DNA from: Chitinophagales bacterium
Lineage (GTDB): Bacteria; Bacteroidota; Bacteroidia; Chitinophagales; Saprospiraceae
Direction: 5' to 3'
NCBI GenBank assembly: GCA_017303875.1
Contig: JAFLBP010000008.1
Span: 1-64,000, forward strand
DNA: 64,000 nt
Positions 49,355 to 55,182 of the stretch are shown piece by piece. The position numbers were made by a program, and so were the translations under genes. Positions within the stretch are counted from its first letter, which is position 1. The number at the start of each line of letters is the position of its first letter. The notes beneath the pieces are model-generated. The model was not told the origin of the DNA and ran no database searches. It saw nothing but the letters and a program-made list of their open reading frames with translations.

Positions 49355-49688
49355 GTGTATCAGCTTTTAACCGGTATTTTGAAAAAGTACAAAATTTTGA
49401 TAATCAATATTTTGTACTGTATTTTTTCAAAAATACGGTGAATGGTTTAAATTTGGCTGCAAAGATAAACCGGGAATCGTTAAGGAGGGAGCGGATGAAT
49501 AAAGAAATCGTGACTGCTTGTGTCTTATAAAAAATGTAAAAAAGCCAGCCTTAAAAAACTCTTCGGTTACTCACATTCCATATATTTGCGTGGCAATCAA
49601 TCCGCCAGCCGGAGGCATTTGGCCATTAAGGGAGTGCATATAGATGCATATAGCTCATACATTTCAATAATAGGGATAAGCCAGCTTT
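49355..49688. other. Left border region of the restriction-modification island
   Basis: AT content rises sharply from about 49380. The region holds an inverted repeat GTACAAAAT / ATTTTGTAC (arms in 49387-49418), a minus-strand -7 box TATCTTTG at 49460-49467 that may serve the cupin gene, a plus-strand TATATTTG at 49581-49588, and a direct repeat TGCATATAGA / TGCATATAGC at 49635-49654 just before the nuclease gene. No CDS is supported. Confidence 0.55.
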
Positions 49689-50870
49689 ATGAATATAAAA
49701 ATACTTGGACAAGGTTTTGAGCATGAATCTGCAAATGCAGTTGGACACTATCTCATTAAATTTTTAGGCGACAAAGCGTTTCACACATTTACAGGAATCA
49801 CTGCTTTTGCGAGCCTTGCAGGTGTCAAAGGACTTTCAAGTCACATTGAGATGGCCAGAGACCATCTGGCAAAGATTACTATCGTTACTGGTGTAGACCA
49901 AAAAGGGACTTCAAAAGAAGCTCTTGAAGCGCTCTTGGCTTTAGGTATTGATGCATACATTTTCTATCAGCCATCAGTAACAATTTTTCACCCCAAGATA
50001 TATTTGTTTGAAGGCAACGATAGATGCGAGTTGATTATTGGTTCATCAAACCTGACGTCACAAGGACTTTTTACAAATATTGAGACTTCATTACATCTTT
50101 CACTTAACCGCAGCTCTGATACACATTGGAGTATAGTTGAACAACTTAAAGCCTATTTTAAAGGTATATTTGATCTTTCAGACCCAAATCTTAAAAAAAT
50201 TTCCAAAGACATCATTGATGATTTAGTTAAGGCTAAAATTGTCCCTACGGAAGATGAGCGAAAAGCTGCACAAGACAAAATGGACAAACCCGAAAAGCAT
50301 GAAGCGGTAGATTTTATTCTGAAAATATTTCCTAAACGTTTAACAGCTAAAGTTCCTCCTGAGTTTAGAGGAAGAGGAACGAGAAGCACAGTCGTCTCCC
50401 CGAAAGCACTTTCCAGGAAAGGGACTCCACGCAAGGAGGCACTTGTCTGGGAGAGTAAAAATTTGACGGAAAGGGATTTAAATATTCCCAGCGCTTCAAA
50501 TACAAATCCTACAGGTTCTATGTTGTTTAAAAAAGGTCAAATGCAAGGAATAGATCAACGACATCATTTCAGAGAAGTAGTATTTTCTAAGCTCAAATGG
50601 GAAAAGGATGCAACCTCTAAACATCCACATCTTGAACGAGCAGTTGCTACTTTTTACATAACTATTGACGGTAAAAGTAAAGGCACTTTTGACCTAGTTC
50701 TAACACATAACAGCGATACAGGTAGTCGCTCGTATCAACAGAAAAATTCCATGACTCAGGTTAGTTGGGGTTTCGCAAAAGAACATATAGCAAAACCAGA
50801 ACTTATCGGAAAGCAAGCGAGACTGTACAAAACGAGGAAAAACAATGTGTTTGTGCTCGAAATCAATTAG
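49689..50870 (+). CDS. PLD-family restriction endonuclease (BfiI/NgoFVII-like)
   Basis: A 393-residue protein. The N-terminal domain (about 1-200) is a phospholipase D-type nuclease with HPK (His101, Lys103), GSSNLT (Asn121) and Glu132. These residues match the spacing I recall for BfiI (His105, Lys107, Asn125, Glu136), a restriction enzyme that needs no metal ion. The C-terminal half (about 230-393: QRHHFREVVFSKLKWEKDAT; FDLVLTHNSDTGSRSYQQKN) has no recognised motif and may be the B3-like DNA-recognition domain of such enzymes. It is followed by a controller gene and a methyltransferase. AT content is far above the flanks, indicating acquisition by transfer. Confidence 0.82.
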   Translation: MNIKILGQGFEHESANAVGHYLIKFLGDKAFHTFTGITAFASLAGVKGLSSHIEMARDHLAKITIVTGVDQKGTSKEALEALLALGIDAYIFYQPSVTIFHPKIYLFEGNDRCELIIGSSNLTSQGLFTNIETSLHLSLNRSSDTHWSIVEQLKAYFKGIFDLSDPNLKKISKDIIDDLVKAKIVPTEDERKAAQDKMDKPEKHEAVDFILKIFPKRLTAKVPPEFRGRGTRSTVVSPKALSRKGTPRKEALVWESKNLTERDLNIPSASNTNPTGSMLFKKGQMQGIDQRHHFREVVFSKLKWEKDATSKHPHLERAVATFYITIDGKSKGTFDLVLTHNSDTGSRSYQQKNSMTQVSWGFAKEHIAKPELIGKQARLYKTRKNNVFVLEIN

Positions 50871-50916
50871 TTGTCTGTCTTTGATGAGTTGTTGATAATA
50901 TTTTTTCAATTTTTTG

Positions 50917-50947
50917 TTTGAAGAAATGTTTTATAGCCTTATCTTTG
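50917..50947 (+). promoter_or_regulatory. Promoter of the controller-methyltransferase genes
   Basis: TTTG (50917-50920), a 19-base spacer and TATCTTTG (50940-50947) are a perfect Bacteroidota promoter. The predicted transcription start, about 50954, leaves a leader of only about 13 bases before the start codon at 50967. Confidence 0.7.
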
Positions 50948-50964
50948 GACAAAATCTGTCCAAA
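50944..50964. promoter_or_regulatory. Controller-protein operator (C box)
   Basis: A perfect palindrome TTTGGACA-AAATC-TGTCCAAA with 8-bp arms overlaps the last half of the -7 box and the expected transcription start, 2 bases before the controller start codon. The placement predicts repression when bound. Confidence 0.75.
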
Positions 50965-50966
50965 TC

Positions 50967-51284
50967 ATGATACTTGAGAAAACATTTGGAGAAACCGTCA
51001 GGAAACTACGCGACGAAAGGCAACTTCGTTTGCGTGAGGTTGCTGATGCTTTAAAAATAGACATATCAACGTTGGCTAAAATCGAAAAAAACACTCGCAA
51101 GCCTACTAAACAGGTCATTGAAAAACTTGCTATGTATTTTAGTGTAAACGAAAAAGACTTGATGGTGGCTTTCATCAGTGATTCAGTTGCATATCAAGTG
51201 ATGGATGAGGAAGAATTTGCCACAGAAGTTCTTAAAGTGGCAGAACAAAAAGTACAATACTTAAAAACAAAAAAAACATCTTAA
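50967..51284 (+). CDS. XRE-family helix-turn-helix controller protein of the RM system
   Basis: A 105-residue regulator. The HTH domain (about 5-65: FGETVRKLRDERQLRLREVA, ALKIDISTLAKIEKNTRKPT, QVIEKLAMYFSVNEKDLM) is followed by a short helical tail with VAEQKVQYLK. Size and position are those of restriction-modification controller (C) proteins, which delay the nuclease and limit the methyltransferase. The stop codon is separated from the methyltransferase start by one base. The palindrome at its own promoter is the likely binding site. Confidence 0.88.
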   Translation: MILEKTFGETVRKLRDERQLRLREVADALKIDISTLAKIEKNTRKPTKQVIEKLAMYFSVNEKDLMVAFISDSVAYQVMDEEEFATEVLKVAEQKVQYLKTKKTS

Positions 51285-51285
51285 C

Positions 51286-52896
51286 ATGAAACTGATCACA
51301 GAAGCATCCGCAGAGAAGTTAAGAGGTGGCTTTTATACCCCTGAACCAATCGCAGAATTTATTTTGCGTTGGGGTATCAATGGTAGCAGTGATTTTGATA
51401 TACTTGAGCCAAGCTGTGGTGATGGTGTTTTTTTGGAACAACTCGCAAAAAATAATCTGAATTATAACTCTGTTACAGCAATTGAGCTTGATGAAGCCGA
51501 AGCTGCAAAGGCAGAAAAAATTGATCTAAAAAACAAACAAGTTATAAATACTGATTTTCATACATATTGCAATAATACTCATGCAAGATTCAATTTAGTT
51601 ATTGGGAATCCGCCTTATATTCGGTATCAATTTTTTGACAGGTTACAGCAGATAGAAGCGAGTGACATTTTTATTAAAGCGGGTTTAACCTACTCCAAGC
51701 TAACAAATGCCTGGGTTTCTTTTGTTGTGGGTTCTTCGTTGCTGCTTAAAGAAGATGGCGGGAAAATCGGATTTGTTCTACCCGCAGAAATTCTACAGGT
51801 TTCTTATGCTCAGCAACTTAGAAAATTCATCGCTCAATTTTACAATAAAATTAACATCGTTTCATTCAAAAAACTTGTATTTCCTGATATTCAGCAGGAA
51901 GTTATTCTTCTCTTGTGTGAGAAGAATAATACAGGTGACCACAAAATCGAACATCTTGAACTGCATGATGCAAGTGAATTAAAAAACCTCGATATTTCAA
52001 GGCTTAAAAGCCCCTATAAGAAGATTGATTTCAAAAGCAACAAATGGACTTTTTACTTTTTGGAGCAAGAGGAAATTGATTTTTTAGAGAATATTTCAAA
52101 AGACAGAAATATTTTTCCGCTTGGAAAATTTGCGAAGGTTGAAGTAGGAATTACAACGGGTTCAAACGAGTATTTTACGGTACCGCTGGAAACTGTTGAA
52201 GCATATAGTTTGCATGACTACGCAAAACCGATGGTTGGGAGAAGCGTACAGGTTAACAGCGTAATTTTTACACAAAACGATTGGGAAAAAAACAAAAACT
52301 CGTCAGCTAGAGCACATTTACTTACATTCCCTGATCGCAATAACTTAAAAGAAAAAAATGGCGCAGTACAGTATATAGAATATGGCGAAAGTTTAGGTAT
52401 ACACAAAGGTTATAAAACAGGCATACGGGATGATTGGTTTGTTGTTCCATCATTGAAAATTTCAGATGCATTGTTCATTCGAAGGAATAATCTATATCCA
52501 AAATTGATAATTAATCAAGCAAGGGCATATTCCACGGATACGATGCATCGTGTTTTTCTAAAATCAAGTACAAACTTAGAAGCATTTACTGCTAGTTACT
52601 ATAATTCGCTTTCGTTGGCTTTTACAGAAGTTTGTGGAAGAAGTCATGGTGGAGGGGTTTTAGAGCTTATGCCAAATGAGGCGGAGAGGGTTTTACTTCC
52701 TTATCATAAAGGAAATGAAGCCCTGCTTCCTGAAATAGACAAACTAATCCGTAGTAAAACGGATATCGAGGAAGTTTTAAAGATGACTAATCAGGTCATT
52801 TTAAAAGAGTCTTTTGGTTTAACTCAAAAAGAAATTAAACTTGCTCACACAATTTGGAAAAAACTTTCTGAACGAAGATTGAATCGTAGTAAATAA
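51286..52896 (+). CDS. N6-adenine DNA methyltransferase of the RM system (Eco57I-like)
   Basis: A 536-residue gamma-class amino-methyltransferase. Motif I is ILEPSCGDGVF (39-49) for S-adenosylmethionine, and motif IV is NPPY (108-111) in GNPPYIRYQFF, typical of N6-adenine enzymes. The C-terminal ~250 residues probably hold the target-recognition domain. It would protect host sites from the nuclease upstream. Only one methyltransferase is present; if the site is asymmetric, a second would be expected unless this enzyme modifies both strands. AT-rich like its neighbours. Confidence 0.9.
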   Translation: MKLITEASAEKLRGGFYTPEPIAEFILRWGINGSSDFDILEPSCGDGVFLEQLAKNNLNYNSVTAIELDEAEAAKAEKIDLKNKQVINTDFHTYCNNTHARFNLVIGNPPYIRYQFFDRLQQIEASDIFIKAGLTYSKLTNAWVSFVVGSSLLLKEDGGKIGFVLPAEILQVSYAQQLRKFIAQFYNKINIVSFKKLVFPDIQQEVILLLCEKNNTGDHKIEHLELHDASELKNLDISRLKSPYKKIDFKSNKWTFYFLEQEEIDFLENISKDRNIFPLGKFAKVEVGITTGSNEYFTVPLETVEAYSLHDYAKPMVGRSVQVNSVIFTQNDWEKNKNSSARAHLLTFPDRNNLKEKNGAVQYIEYGESLGIHKGYKTGIRDDWFVVPSLKISDALFIRRNNLYPKLIINQARAYSTDTMHRVFLKSSTNLEAFTASYYNSLSLAFTEVCGRSHGGGVLELMPNEAERVLLPYHKGNEALLPEIDKLIRSKTDIEEVLKMTNQVILKESFGLTQKEIKLAHTIWKKLSERRLNRSK

Positions 52897-52920: not shown

Positions 52921-55182
52921 TCACTCCTTAACCAACTGCTTCAACAAAGGACTTACTCGCGCAATGCGCTCCGCATGCCAGTCTGCTGCCTGACCGATAT
53001 TCCTGGCAGTTGCTTTCTCCGGTCCAGCCTTCACTAATTCCAGCAATTTTTGTCGCTCCGGGCCACCAAAACGACTGAATACCCGCCGCAACAAGGGCAG
53101 GCTCTCTTTGAAATCTGCGGCCTGCAACTGTCCCACCCACTCATACACCACTTGCCAGAGCATCTGGTAATGCAAGAGTAAAATGCCGCTGCCGCTGAGG
53201 AAACCGTCGAGCCAGTTGGCCGCTTCCAGCGGGGTGTAGCCCGCCGACCAGCGATAACCCATTTGCAGGGCGATTTCTTCGGCGGGAATTTGTTTTTTAT
53301 CAAAGAGCAAGCGCAGGGCCAGACCGGCCAGCAAGGGCGCCGAGCCGGGTTGTTCGTAAAGCTGGTAAAGCGCCTGTTGCCAGTCTTGTTCGTATTGCGC
53401 ATTTTCAATCAGCCCCAGGGCTTTGTTGAAGGCAAAAATGACTTTCCGGAGTTGCTCCGCCTGTTCTTCGTCGAGGTGTACGCAGGCTGAAGGCAACAGC
53501 AGACAGGTGCGCGGCACTAATTCCTCCAGAATTTGCTGCAAACTATCCACGTCTAAGCGCCGGGCGGCGCCATAACGCAGGGTTTCCACCAAGGGCAGTA
53601 CGGCGGCGGCCATCGACCATACGTCGGTTGCCAGGGCAGCGCTTTCGCGCAGGCGCGCGAGCAGGGCCGGCACTGCGGCCGGCAGATCGGCGCGCAGGCT
53701 CTGGCCCAGCAGCCCGACCAGTTCAGGAAGTTGCGCCAGCTCCTGACCGCGTGCCAGGCTTGCCGTAAGTGCCGCTTCGTAAACGGTGTTGCCCCATTTT
53801 CCGGCTTCAATGAGGTTTAATTCATAATCGGGCAGCCAGCGCAGGCTCCAGTTTTCATGAAAACTGCCTTGTTTGCCCTCACCGCGCTCTAAAGCCTGTG
53901 CCCAGGGAATACCCAGCAGGAGGATGCGGTGAAACAAGACGCTTTTGCGCAAATGGGCATCCTGACGCAAATCAAGCGCAATGTGCTGCGCGCCGGGCTT
54001 GAGTTCGAGGCGGCATTGGCGCACCGCAGCTTCAAAATCTGCTTTTAACGGCGGCGCAGGTAAATGCGCCGGAATACTGCCGAGTACATCACCGATAACC
54101 AGCTGTTCGTCAATGAGTTGCAATTGCAACTCGCTGCCGCCGCAAAGTACGCTGACCGCTGCTTCGCGCAGTTCTTCAATGCCCGGAAGGGCCAAGTGGC
54201 GCAGGGCAGCGAGTTGTTCGGCCAATCGGGTGGCCTCAATGATATGTGCCGATGATATTTCCAGGTCTTTTTCCCGCAATAGTCGGGCGGCATGGCTGAG
54301 CCAGCGCGCAGTCGCTTCGGCACTGTCTCCTTTGCGCAGCAGGCAGTCGAACAGCACCCGATACCAGGCCGGGGCCAATACGCCGGCGCCGTATCCTTTT
54401 TGTTTGGCGAGGCGCTCAAACGACCAGGGGATCCAGACGGCCTCGGTTTTTACCTTTTTTAGCCCTTTCAGCACAGCGGCATCGGCGCTCGCCTTGATGC
54501 GCGGCGTGGCTTCTAATGCAGGCGTATGCCAGGCGCCGCAAACCACGGCAATTTTTCCAAAACCCTCTTTTTCTGCCGCGCGGATACACTGGCGCATATA
54601 CGCTTCGCGGCGCAGGGTTTCGGCGCTCTCGGCGATGCTTTTGCTTTCCCGAAGGGCCTGCATTAATTCCAGTACGACGCCAAAACTGCCGCCCGAACCA
54701 TGCAAAGCGCCCGGCCCTTCGATGGCGGCTTCCCACCAGCGCTCGGGGTCGGCATAACCAGCCAAAGCTGCAATGGTGGAAAAAGGATCCTGCATTTCCG
54801 GCACTTCGCCACTTGCATTTTCTTCAAACAATTCCGGTGCTTCGGGCATTTGCTCGCTGAGCACAAAATTGAAACTCATCGGCAAATCCATGAAGCGAAG
54901 CGGAATTTTCTGCTGTAATGCAAATTGAATGGCTTGCCATTCAGGAGAAAATTCGGCAAAAGGAAAAAAGCTGGCCTGTGAAAAATTCTTTGGATTGTAT
55001 ACCAACATCGCTACCGGCGGCACAAAACCGGGGTCGGCCGCTACCGACAACAATGCCTCCGCATCGCTTGGGCCTTCTATCAGAATCAGGTCGGGCGGAT
55101 CAAGTTGCAAGACTTGCAACAGGCTTTTGGCCGAGCCAGGCCCGTGGTGCCGGATGCCGTATAATTGAAGTGTTGCAGGCAT
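52921..55182 (-). CDS. DUF5682 family protein
   Basis: A 753-residue, mostly helical cytosolic protein. The N-terminus LYGIRHHGPGSAKSLLQVLQ with DLILIEGPSDAEAL, LVYNPKNFSQASFFPFAEFS and VVCGAWHTPAL are the recognisable DUF5682 features; the last resembles TraB/ChaN-type folds. The rest has no known domain. In many genomes DUF5682 genes sit beside MoxR-type AAA+ and VWA genes; neither is here. The function is unknown. ATG 55182 is chosen over 55209 because MPATLQLYGIRHHG is the conserved start. It is preceded by prsW and a hydrolase gene in the same direction. Confidence 0.82.
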   Translation of the reverse strand: MPATLQLYGIRHHGPGSAKSLLQVLQLDPPDLILIEGPSDAEALLSVAADPGFVPPVAMLVYNPKNFSQASFFPFAEFSPEWQAIQFALQQKIPLRFMDLPMSFNFVLSEQMPEAPELFEENASGEVPEMQDPFSTIAALAGYADPERWWEAAIEGPGALHGSGGSFGVVLELMQALRESKSIAESAETLRREAYMRQCIRAAEKEGFGKIAVVCGAWHTPALEATPRIKASADAAVLKGLKKVKTEAVWIPWSFERLAKQKGYGAGVLAPAWYRVLFDCLLRKGDSAEATARWLSHAARLLREKDLEISSAHIIEATRLAEQLAALRHLALPGIEELREAAVSVLCGGSELQLQLIDEQLVIGDVLGSIPAHLPAPPLKADFEAAVRQCRLELKPGAQHIALDLRQDAHLRKSVLFHRILLLGIPWAQALERGEGKQGSFHENWSLRWLPDYELNLIEAGKWGNTVYEAALTASLARGQELAQLPELVGLLGQSLRADLPAAVPALLARLRESAALATDVWSMAAAVLPLVETLRYGAARRLDVDSLQQILEELVPRTCLLLPSACVHLDEEQAEQLRKVIFAFNKALGLIENAQYEQDWQQALYQLYEQPGSAPLLAGLALRLLFDKKQIPAEEIALQMGYRWSAGYTPLEAANWLDGFLSGSGILLLHYQMLWQVVYEWVGQLQAADFKESLPLLRRVFSRFGGPERQKLLELVKAGPEKATARNIGQAADWHAERIARVSPLLKQLVKE

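Follow-up and report, generated by a model that had tools for sequence, protein, structure and literature searches.

A likely acquired restriction-modification cassette in a Chitinophagales genome, with a PLD-B3 nuclease, a probable autorepressor and a methylase lineage that changes nuclease partners

What does a small regulator control when its gene lies behind that of the nuclease and directly ahead of that of the methylase, and against which cutters does such a methylase guard? Both questions are raised by a three-gene cassette in a Chitinophagales bacterium (Saprospiraceae; GenBank assembly GCA_017303875.1), at positions 49689-52896 of the first 64,000 nucleotides (nt) of contig JAFLBP010000008.1, the stretch of DNA analysed here (which we refer to as the window). 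All three genes are on the + strand in the order R-C-M: R, a likely restriction endonuclease, joins a phospholipase D (PLD) nuclease domain to a predicted B3-like domain, C is a regulator of the XRE family and M is a predicted N6-adenine DNA methyltransferase of the M.Eco57I type. We hold with good confidence that this is a Type II restriction-modification (R-M) system of exactly that build, and it is likely anti-phage. The best explanation of the whole, to which we give a probability of about two in three, is an acquired R-C-M cassette with a PLD-B3 cutter, a guarding methylase and a C protein that represses the promoter shared by C and M. R would likely cut unmethylated DNA, M is predicted to methylate and protect the host's own sites, and C would likely bind a palindrome overlapping the C-M promoter, repressing its own expression and that of M. 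Other loci and genomes are referred to by our own labels (L and G numbers) where they must be told apart.

The nuclease resembles BfiI in both of its halves. The residues H101 and K103 of an HPK motif, N121 and E132, picked out in an earlier note on this DNA, are present and align to the BfiI residues H105, K107, N125 and E136 (PMC4081073), and each is identical in 80 of 80 aligned sequences (the window's own and 79 chosen out of 240 listed homologues). The note had also read the distances between them (18 residues from K to N, 11 from N to E) as those of BfiI; the distances are right, but they are not specific to BfiI because SauUSI (7clg), as aligned, shares both. Against Pfam, R matches PLDc_2 (E 1.1e-7) and scores 22.1 bits with RE_NgoFVII (PF09565), below the gathering cut-off of 23.8, a label that many R homologues bear as a precomputed annotation. 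The search of all PDB sequences gave three matches, BfiI (2c1l, E 6.6e-5), SauUSI (7clg, 1.8e-4) and NgoAVII (4rct, 0.24). The predicted fold of the C-terminal half matches B3 DNA-binding domains of BfiI, EcoRII and plants, at 10-11% identity to the B3 domain of BfiI, and the structure-match entries FUS3, LEC2, ARF2, VRN1, EcoRII-N and LlaJI.R1-N are ones which we take to be B3 or B3-like domains. In architecture R is BfiI-like, a PLD nuclease followed by a predicted B3-like domain, so the two-domain enzyme of the note and its proposed structural match to the BfiI recognition domain both hold up; BfiI and BmrI, Type IIS PLD enzymes, share with it the N-terminal PLD domain, the HxK-N-E residues, their spacing and the C-terminal B3-like domain.

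The regulator, by its place, is tied to the methylase. R-C-M loci recur in the class, and we compared eight of them: five from class genomes (the window included), one from Chitinophagaceae (L001), and those of G218 and G755. The order is R-C-M in all eight, with C and M between a 4-nt overlap and 3 nt apart (-4 to +3). Before C stands, in 8/8, a perfect palindrome TTTGGAC-N7-GTCCAAA, which ends 0, 0, 0, 0, 1, 1, 2 and 5 nt from the start codon, and in every locus the TTTG of its left arm also forms the end of a TAnnTTTG box, which in Flavobacterium serves the main sigma factor as -7 element according to an excerpt of PMC9723704; a TTG with a 19-nt spacer to this box is found in five of them. 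Each locus has one palindrome of this motif in the 120 nt before C, with no tandem OL/OR pair, and inverted repeats unrelated to it are present in the window and L063. In the tandem R-M loci that have no C (L045, L071) the palindrome is absent, and L071 has a different inverted repeat there. Because the palindrome at the start of C overlaps the -7 box in all eight loci, C most likely represses the C-M promoter as an autorepressor. We think it rather likely that in a naive cell transcription of C-M would at first be unrepressed, giving a burst of methylase that then settles, with R transcribed from a promoter of its own; a TAnnTTTG box lies 24-35 nt upstream of R in 5/7 of the other R-C-M loci and is missing in two, and the window offers one weak candidate. 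Such a C, with a conserved predicted operator over the promoter, would separate 'delay the cutter' from 'burst of methylase' on entry into a new host.

Across 395 genomes of the class, the operator pattern TTTGGACNNNANNNGTCCAAA has ten exact matches, five at R-C-M loci, two at other C homologues (45% and 39% identity to C, one of them joined to an apparent nucleotidyltransferase domain) and three elsewhere; the seven beside a C homologue all overlap TAnnTTTG, and none of the other three does. We rejected a general enrichment of the operator: there were 10 exact against 19 reversed-control matches, 11 against 18 with up to two mismatches, and among phage contigs the operator was matched in 3, two control palindromes in 8 and 1. 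Since the reversed control gives 19 matches in the same genomes, the number of operator matches means nothing; their position does. The same operator and a TAnnTTTG box are found at the start of a gene (L085:901-1575, minus strand) for a C-like XRE domain with an apparent nucleotidyltransferase domain, which is how we read this second part. The C homologue of L072 (45% identity) has another palindrome, TTGACA-N5-TGTCAA, over its TAnnTTTG box and start codon. An exact operator copy, TTTGGACTGAATTAGTCCAAA, also lies between genes in a Mu-like phage contig with a transposase, a transposition protein and Gam (L110:5361-5381, IMGVR_UViG_3300031576_001302), 18 nt before a 96-amino-acid (aa) open reading frame (ORF); the contig has no close C homologue (best 27% identity, E 0.0019), and the copy could be a phage promoter reading the host's C protein or, given the missing enrichment in phage, chance.

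Under classical control, C would activate R (and itself) and so delay R until M protects the chromosome, and three observations weigh for this: like the regulators of known C systems (excerpts of PMC3850674 and PMC4824078), C is a small protein of the XRE type whose own gene has a palindrome in front, the PADLOC model 'Control_protein' matches it at E 8.4e-5 ('HTH_VI' is better, 1.1e-12), and the window has one operator-like site with three mismatches 278 nt before R. Set against these, C follows R and directly precedes M in 8/8 loci, whereas C stands upstream of R and with it, driving it, in the large majority of such systems (in the excerpt of PMC3850674). The single palindrome lies across the -7 box and the start region, a position suited to repression, and before R 7/8 loci have operator-like sites no more often than expected from shuffling. 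PvuII, Esp1396I and Csp231I likewise have a small XRE regulator with a palindromic site at its own gene, but here the order is R-C-M, C adjoins M, one palindrome lies over the -7 box and C is likely a repressor only; Csp231I is resembled in that R apparently has its own promoter (part of PMC4824078). We consider classical control unlikely. The controller named in the earlier note is indeed an XRE protein (Pfam HTH_19/HTH_3), but it is placed to control M and not R, because it lies downstream of R and ahead of M with its palindrome over the likely C-M promoter. The note's other suspicion, that a BfiI-type system with a C protein may be new in the phylum, survives in part: we found no paper on a PLD-type R-M system with a C protein in the open-access literature searched, but a C protein has been described in Bacteroidota, in the C-REase fusion of Niabella soli (excerpt of PMC3850674), and the R-C-M arrangement recurs.

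By analogy with BfiI, R probably works as a dimer that has a single, metal-independent active site and needs no helicase, and if metal-free cutting is true PLD-B3 enzymes are possible reagents. R could instead resemble NgoAVII and CglI in depending on a helicase/ATPase encoded by another gene. For this speaks the R protein of NgoAVII, which has the same PLD-B3 architecture and does not cut its cognate DNA without its ATPase (excerpt of PMC4267653). NgoAVII and CglI have a C5 methylase and an adjacent DEAD-family helicase/ATPase gene, whereas the cassette has an M of the N6-adenine type, an XRE regulator and no adjoining helicase gene. Such a gene appeared neither beside the cassette in the window nor at six further R-C-M loci, where ten flanking ORFs were scanned (on a single side in L066 and L073; L001 left out; 3/10 ORFs without a Pfam match), a scan confined to these neighbourhoods. 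Its absence from the scanned ORFs favours an enzyme of the BfiI rather than the NgoAVII kind, and we regard dependence on a helicase as rather improbable, more so than classical control. A reading of R as a Type IV-like nuclease that depends on modification, or as an effector of abortive infection, beside an orphan methylase is very improbable. The PLD domain has its best structural match in SauUSI, a modification-dependent enzyme, and the PADLOC models ZacB, PbeA and mREase_IV match R at E 9e-8 to 2.1e-6 (REase_II at 2e-6), both of which speak for this reading, but R has a B3-like recognition domain, M homologues elsewhere adjoin IIG-like restriction enzymes, and in 16 loci R occurs together with M, in the host's phylum, on two plasmids of Alphaproteobacteria and in three virus contigs.

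The methylase sets the cassette apart from BfiI. M matches the M.Eco57I C-terminal family PF22837 (130.7 bits) and Eco57I PF07669 (51.4 bits), as well as the PADLOC model MTase_II (PDLC03267, E 9.1e-200), and one M homologue is present in the cassette at 8/8 R-C-M loci, which bears out the single Eco57I-like N6-adenine methyltransferase of the earlier note. No methylase was found in the window flanks by a Pfam scan of the flank genes, unlinked genes and other methylase families beyond the scanned ORFs being possible. The BfiI system has two methylases (excerpt of PMC4267653) and an asymmetric site, ACTGGG (PMC4081073 and the same excerpt), whereas here there is one, of the M.Eco57I lineage, together with an XRE regulator, so a BfiI-type system as a whole, as the note had it, does not fit.

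The M lineage pairs with interchangeable nucleases: PLD-B3, Eco57I-type IIG and HNH. Among 61 plasmid records matching M at 1e-30, we surveyed the gene neighbourhoods of 11, and in seven of these (L097, L098, L099, L100, L102, L104 and L033 from Lysinibacillus) the partner is a methylase-annotated, IIG-like protein of 970-1022 aa; the others have an HNH protein (L101), a 248-aa protein without known function (L103) or a PLD-B3 protein (L031, L032). In the HNH case, a Bacteroides plasmid (L101:3938-6084), the same methylase type stands beside an HNH protein of 193 aa. The IIG build (HSDR_N plus Eco57I domains) was confirmed by Pfam in the three scanned, L033, L097 and the Bacteroidota locus L072, the last with an HSDR_N score of 23.0 at a cut-off of 25.1. 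In a tree of 18 M sequences, whose deeper joins are unsure owing to long branches elsewhere, a Bacteroidota clade of six (support 100/100) holds L072 with its IIG-like partner and five with PLD-B3 partners, and a second clade (100/99) groups three proteobacterial IIG-like partners with three PLD-B3 partners. The Eco57I system itself shares the M.Eco57I family (PF22837), and an E. coli plasmid has, next to a IIG-like enzyme of 998 aa, a methylase with ~35% identity to M. The nuclease of Eco57I is a IIG fusion, whereas R is a separate PLD-B3 protein, even though L072 in the same M clade has the IIG-like kind. Taking residues 250-500 as the recognition half, the C-terminal half of M shows much the same conservation as the catalytic part in most of the M proteins compared, for example 35 and 39% identity in the two parts to the E. 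coli copy and, at the extreme, 27 and 38% to L103; the M relatives in L060/L075 and L061 reach 32 and 25% identity or less.

The recognition domains appear, from sequence comparison, to have been exchanged while M stayed. The L066 cassette (G469) shares with the window 74% identity in C and 81-82% in both halves of M, but just 28% in the B3 domain. L066 and L067 share 63% in the PLD domain and 28% in B3, and their identity profile runs at 54-72% in the PLD part and drops to 23-31% beyond the linker, whereas the B3 domains of L067 and the window share 55%. The B3 domain of L071 is, by eye, of the same second kind as that of L066 (37% identity). No further B3 exchanges were found among 241 retrieved homologues, the lists favouring full-length similarity, and a search for the second B3 subtype in the 395 class genomes matched five, of which only G469 itself exceeded 34% identity. 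The B3 domain of the R family also occurs alone, as a 144-aa gene on the Lysinibacillus plasmid (L033:4998-5432), adjoining an M.Eco57I-type methylase and a IIG-like enzyme with an integrase gene next door, and has four related protein clusters at 74-80% identity.

The site of M.Eco57I, CTNNAG, is degenerate, one enzyme methylates both strands, and this degeneracy leaves its nuclease partner only the central two base pairs in which to evolve (excerpt of PMC3874165). If M shares such a site, a single methylase is enough for an asymmetric cutter, which is then free to vary. We offer it as a tentative analogy that M has a degenerate site, under which the recognition domains of the nuclease would be exchangeable with one guard. 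Somewhat more doubtful still is a modular platform, in which a permissive, CTNNAG-like M, held at a safe level by C, would guard against a set of cutters, so that the B3 subtype or the whole nuclease (PLD-B3, IIG, HNH) could be swapped without re-evolving M. If true, target switching in Type II restriction would be quick and safe, where normally R and M have to change together. A methylase lineage in which both recognition domains and whole nucleases have been exchanged makes a testable case for specificity change.

Beyond these loci, 1223 proteins among 7999 scored candidates match R at E <=1e-3. The best 119 homologues besides the window's own share 56-67% identity across 92-100% of R length, and those with a named source are from Bacteroidota, labelled 'phospholipase D family', 'HKD family nuclease' or hypothetical. 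In a sample of the phylum R was matched at 1e-3 in 28/395 genomes, over most of its length in four only (G000, G218, G066, G036), and in the host's class the family profile at 1e-15 found 10/395 genomes, five of which, the host included, carry R, C and M. Eight further loci have R and M without C, in tandem in L045 and L071 and on opposite strands in L031, L032, L046, L047, L068 (=L004) and L069 (=L005), and include Roseobacter and Yoonia plasmids and the three virus contigs. Nine plasmid records match R, two of them over at least 80% of its length, and one phage record does so partially; the phage collection gave no match to M at E 1e-20. In one phage contig the R-M pair lies between the terminase large subunit and portal genes (L046:2391-5218). 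In L071 (2230-5001) R is in frame with a lysyl-tRNA synthetase-like part in a single ORF of 923 aa, either a real fusion or an assembly effect, as though the cassette had inserted at the 3' end of what is presumably lysS.

Table 1. Positions of the genes and features of the R-C-M cassette in the window.
Feature	Position	Strand	Remark
Candidate -7 box for R promoter, TATATTTG	49581..49588	+	weak; 108 nt before R start codon
R, likely restriction endonuclease	49689..50870	+	393 aa; PLD nuclease ~aa 1-195, B3-like ~aa 251-393
HPK catalytic motif (H101, K103)	49989..49997	+	aligned to BfiI H105/K107
N121	50049-50051	+	aligned to BfiI N125
E132	50082-50084	+	aligned to BfiI E136
B3-like DNA-recognition domain of R (predicted fold)	50439..50870	+	
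Candidate -33 element, TTG	50918..50920	+	19 nt before -7 box
Candidate -7 box (TAnnTTTG) of C-M promoter, TATCTTTG	50940..50947	+	overlaps palindrome
Palindrome TTTGGACA-AAATC-TGTCCAAA, likely operator of C	50944..50964	+	
C, XRE-family regulator	50967..51284	+	105 aa; stops 1 nt short of M
M, predicted N6-adenine DNA methyltransferase, M.Eco57I type	51286..52896	+	536 aa

The cassette was likely acquired horizontally, and the AT-rich island among GC-rich flanks described in the earlier note is there: R, C and M have a GC content of 38.3, 35.8 and 35.4% in a window of 52.6%, and at third codon positions (GC3) 29-31%, against 52-57% and 60-64% GC3 in three flanking genes. By their Pfam matches the genes to the left encode a carbohydrate phosphorylase and a mannose-6-phosphate isomerase-like protein, and the one to the right a DUF5682 protein. 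An empty insertion site was not found in the same genus, where the upstream neighbour gene is present in 5/41 genomes, the host's own included, and none of the other four had the other flank genes of the window in the short stretch fetched. Around the cassette lies a 12-nt inverted repeat (49479-49490 and 52921-52932), which we take as chance; the stretch contains 21 such pairs in all. At another R-C-M locus (L063:1334-4006) a TIR-plus-dynamin-like protein directly adjoins the cassette, a possible defence neighbour.

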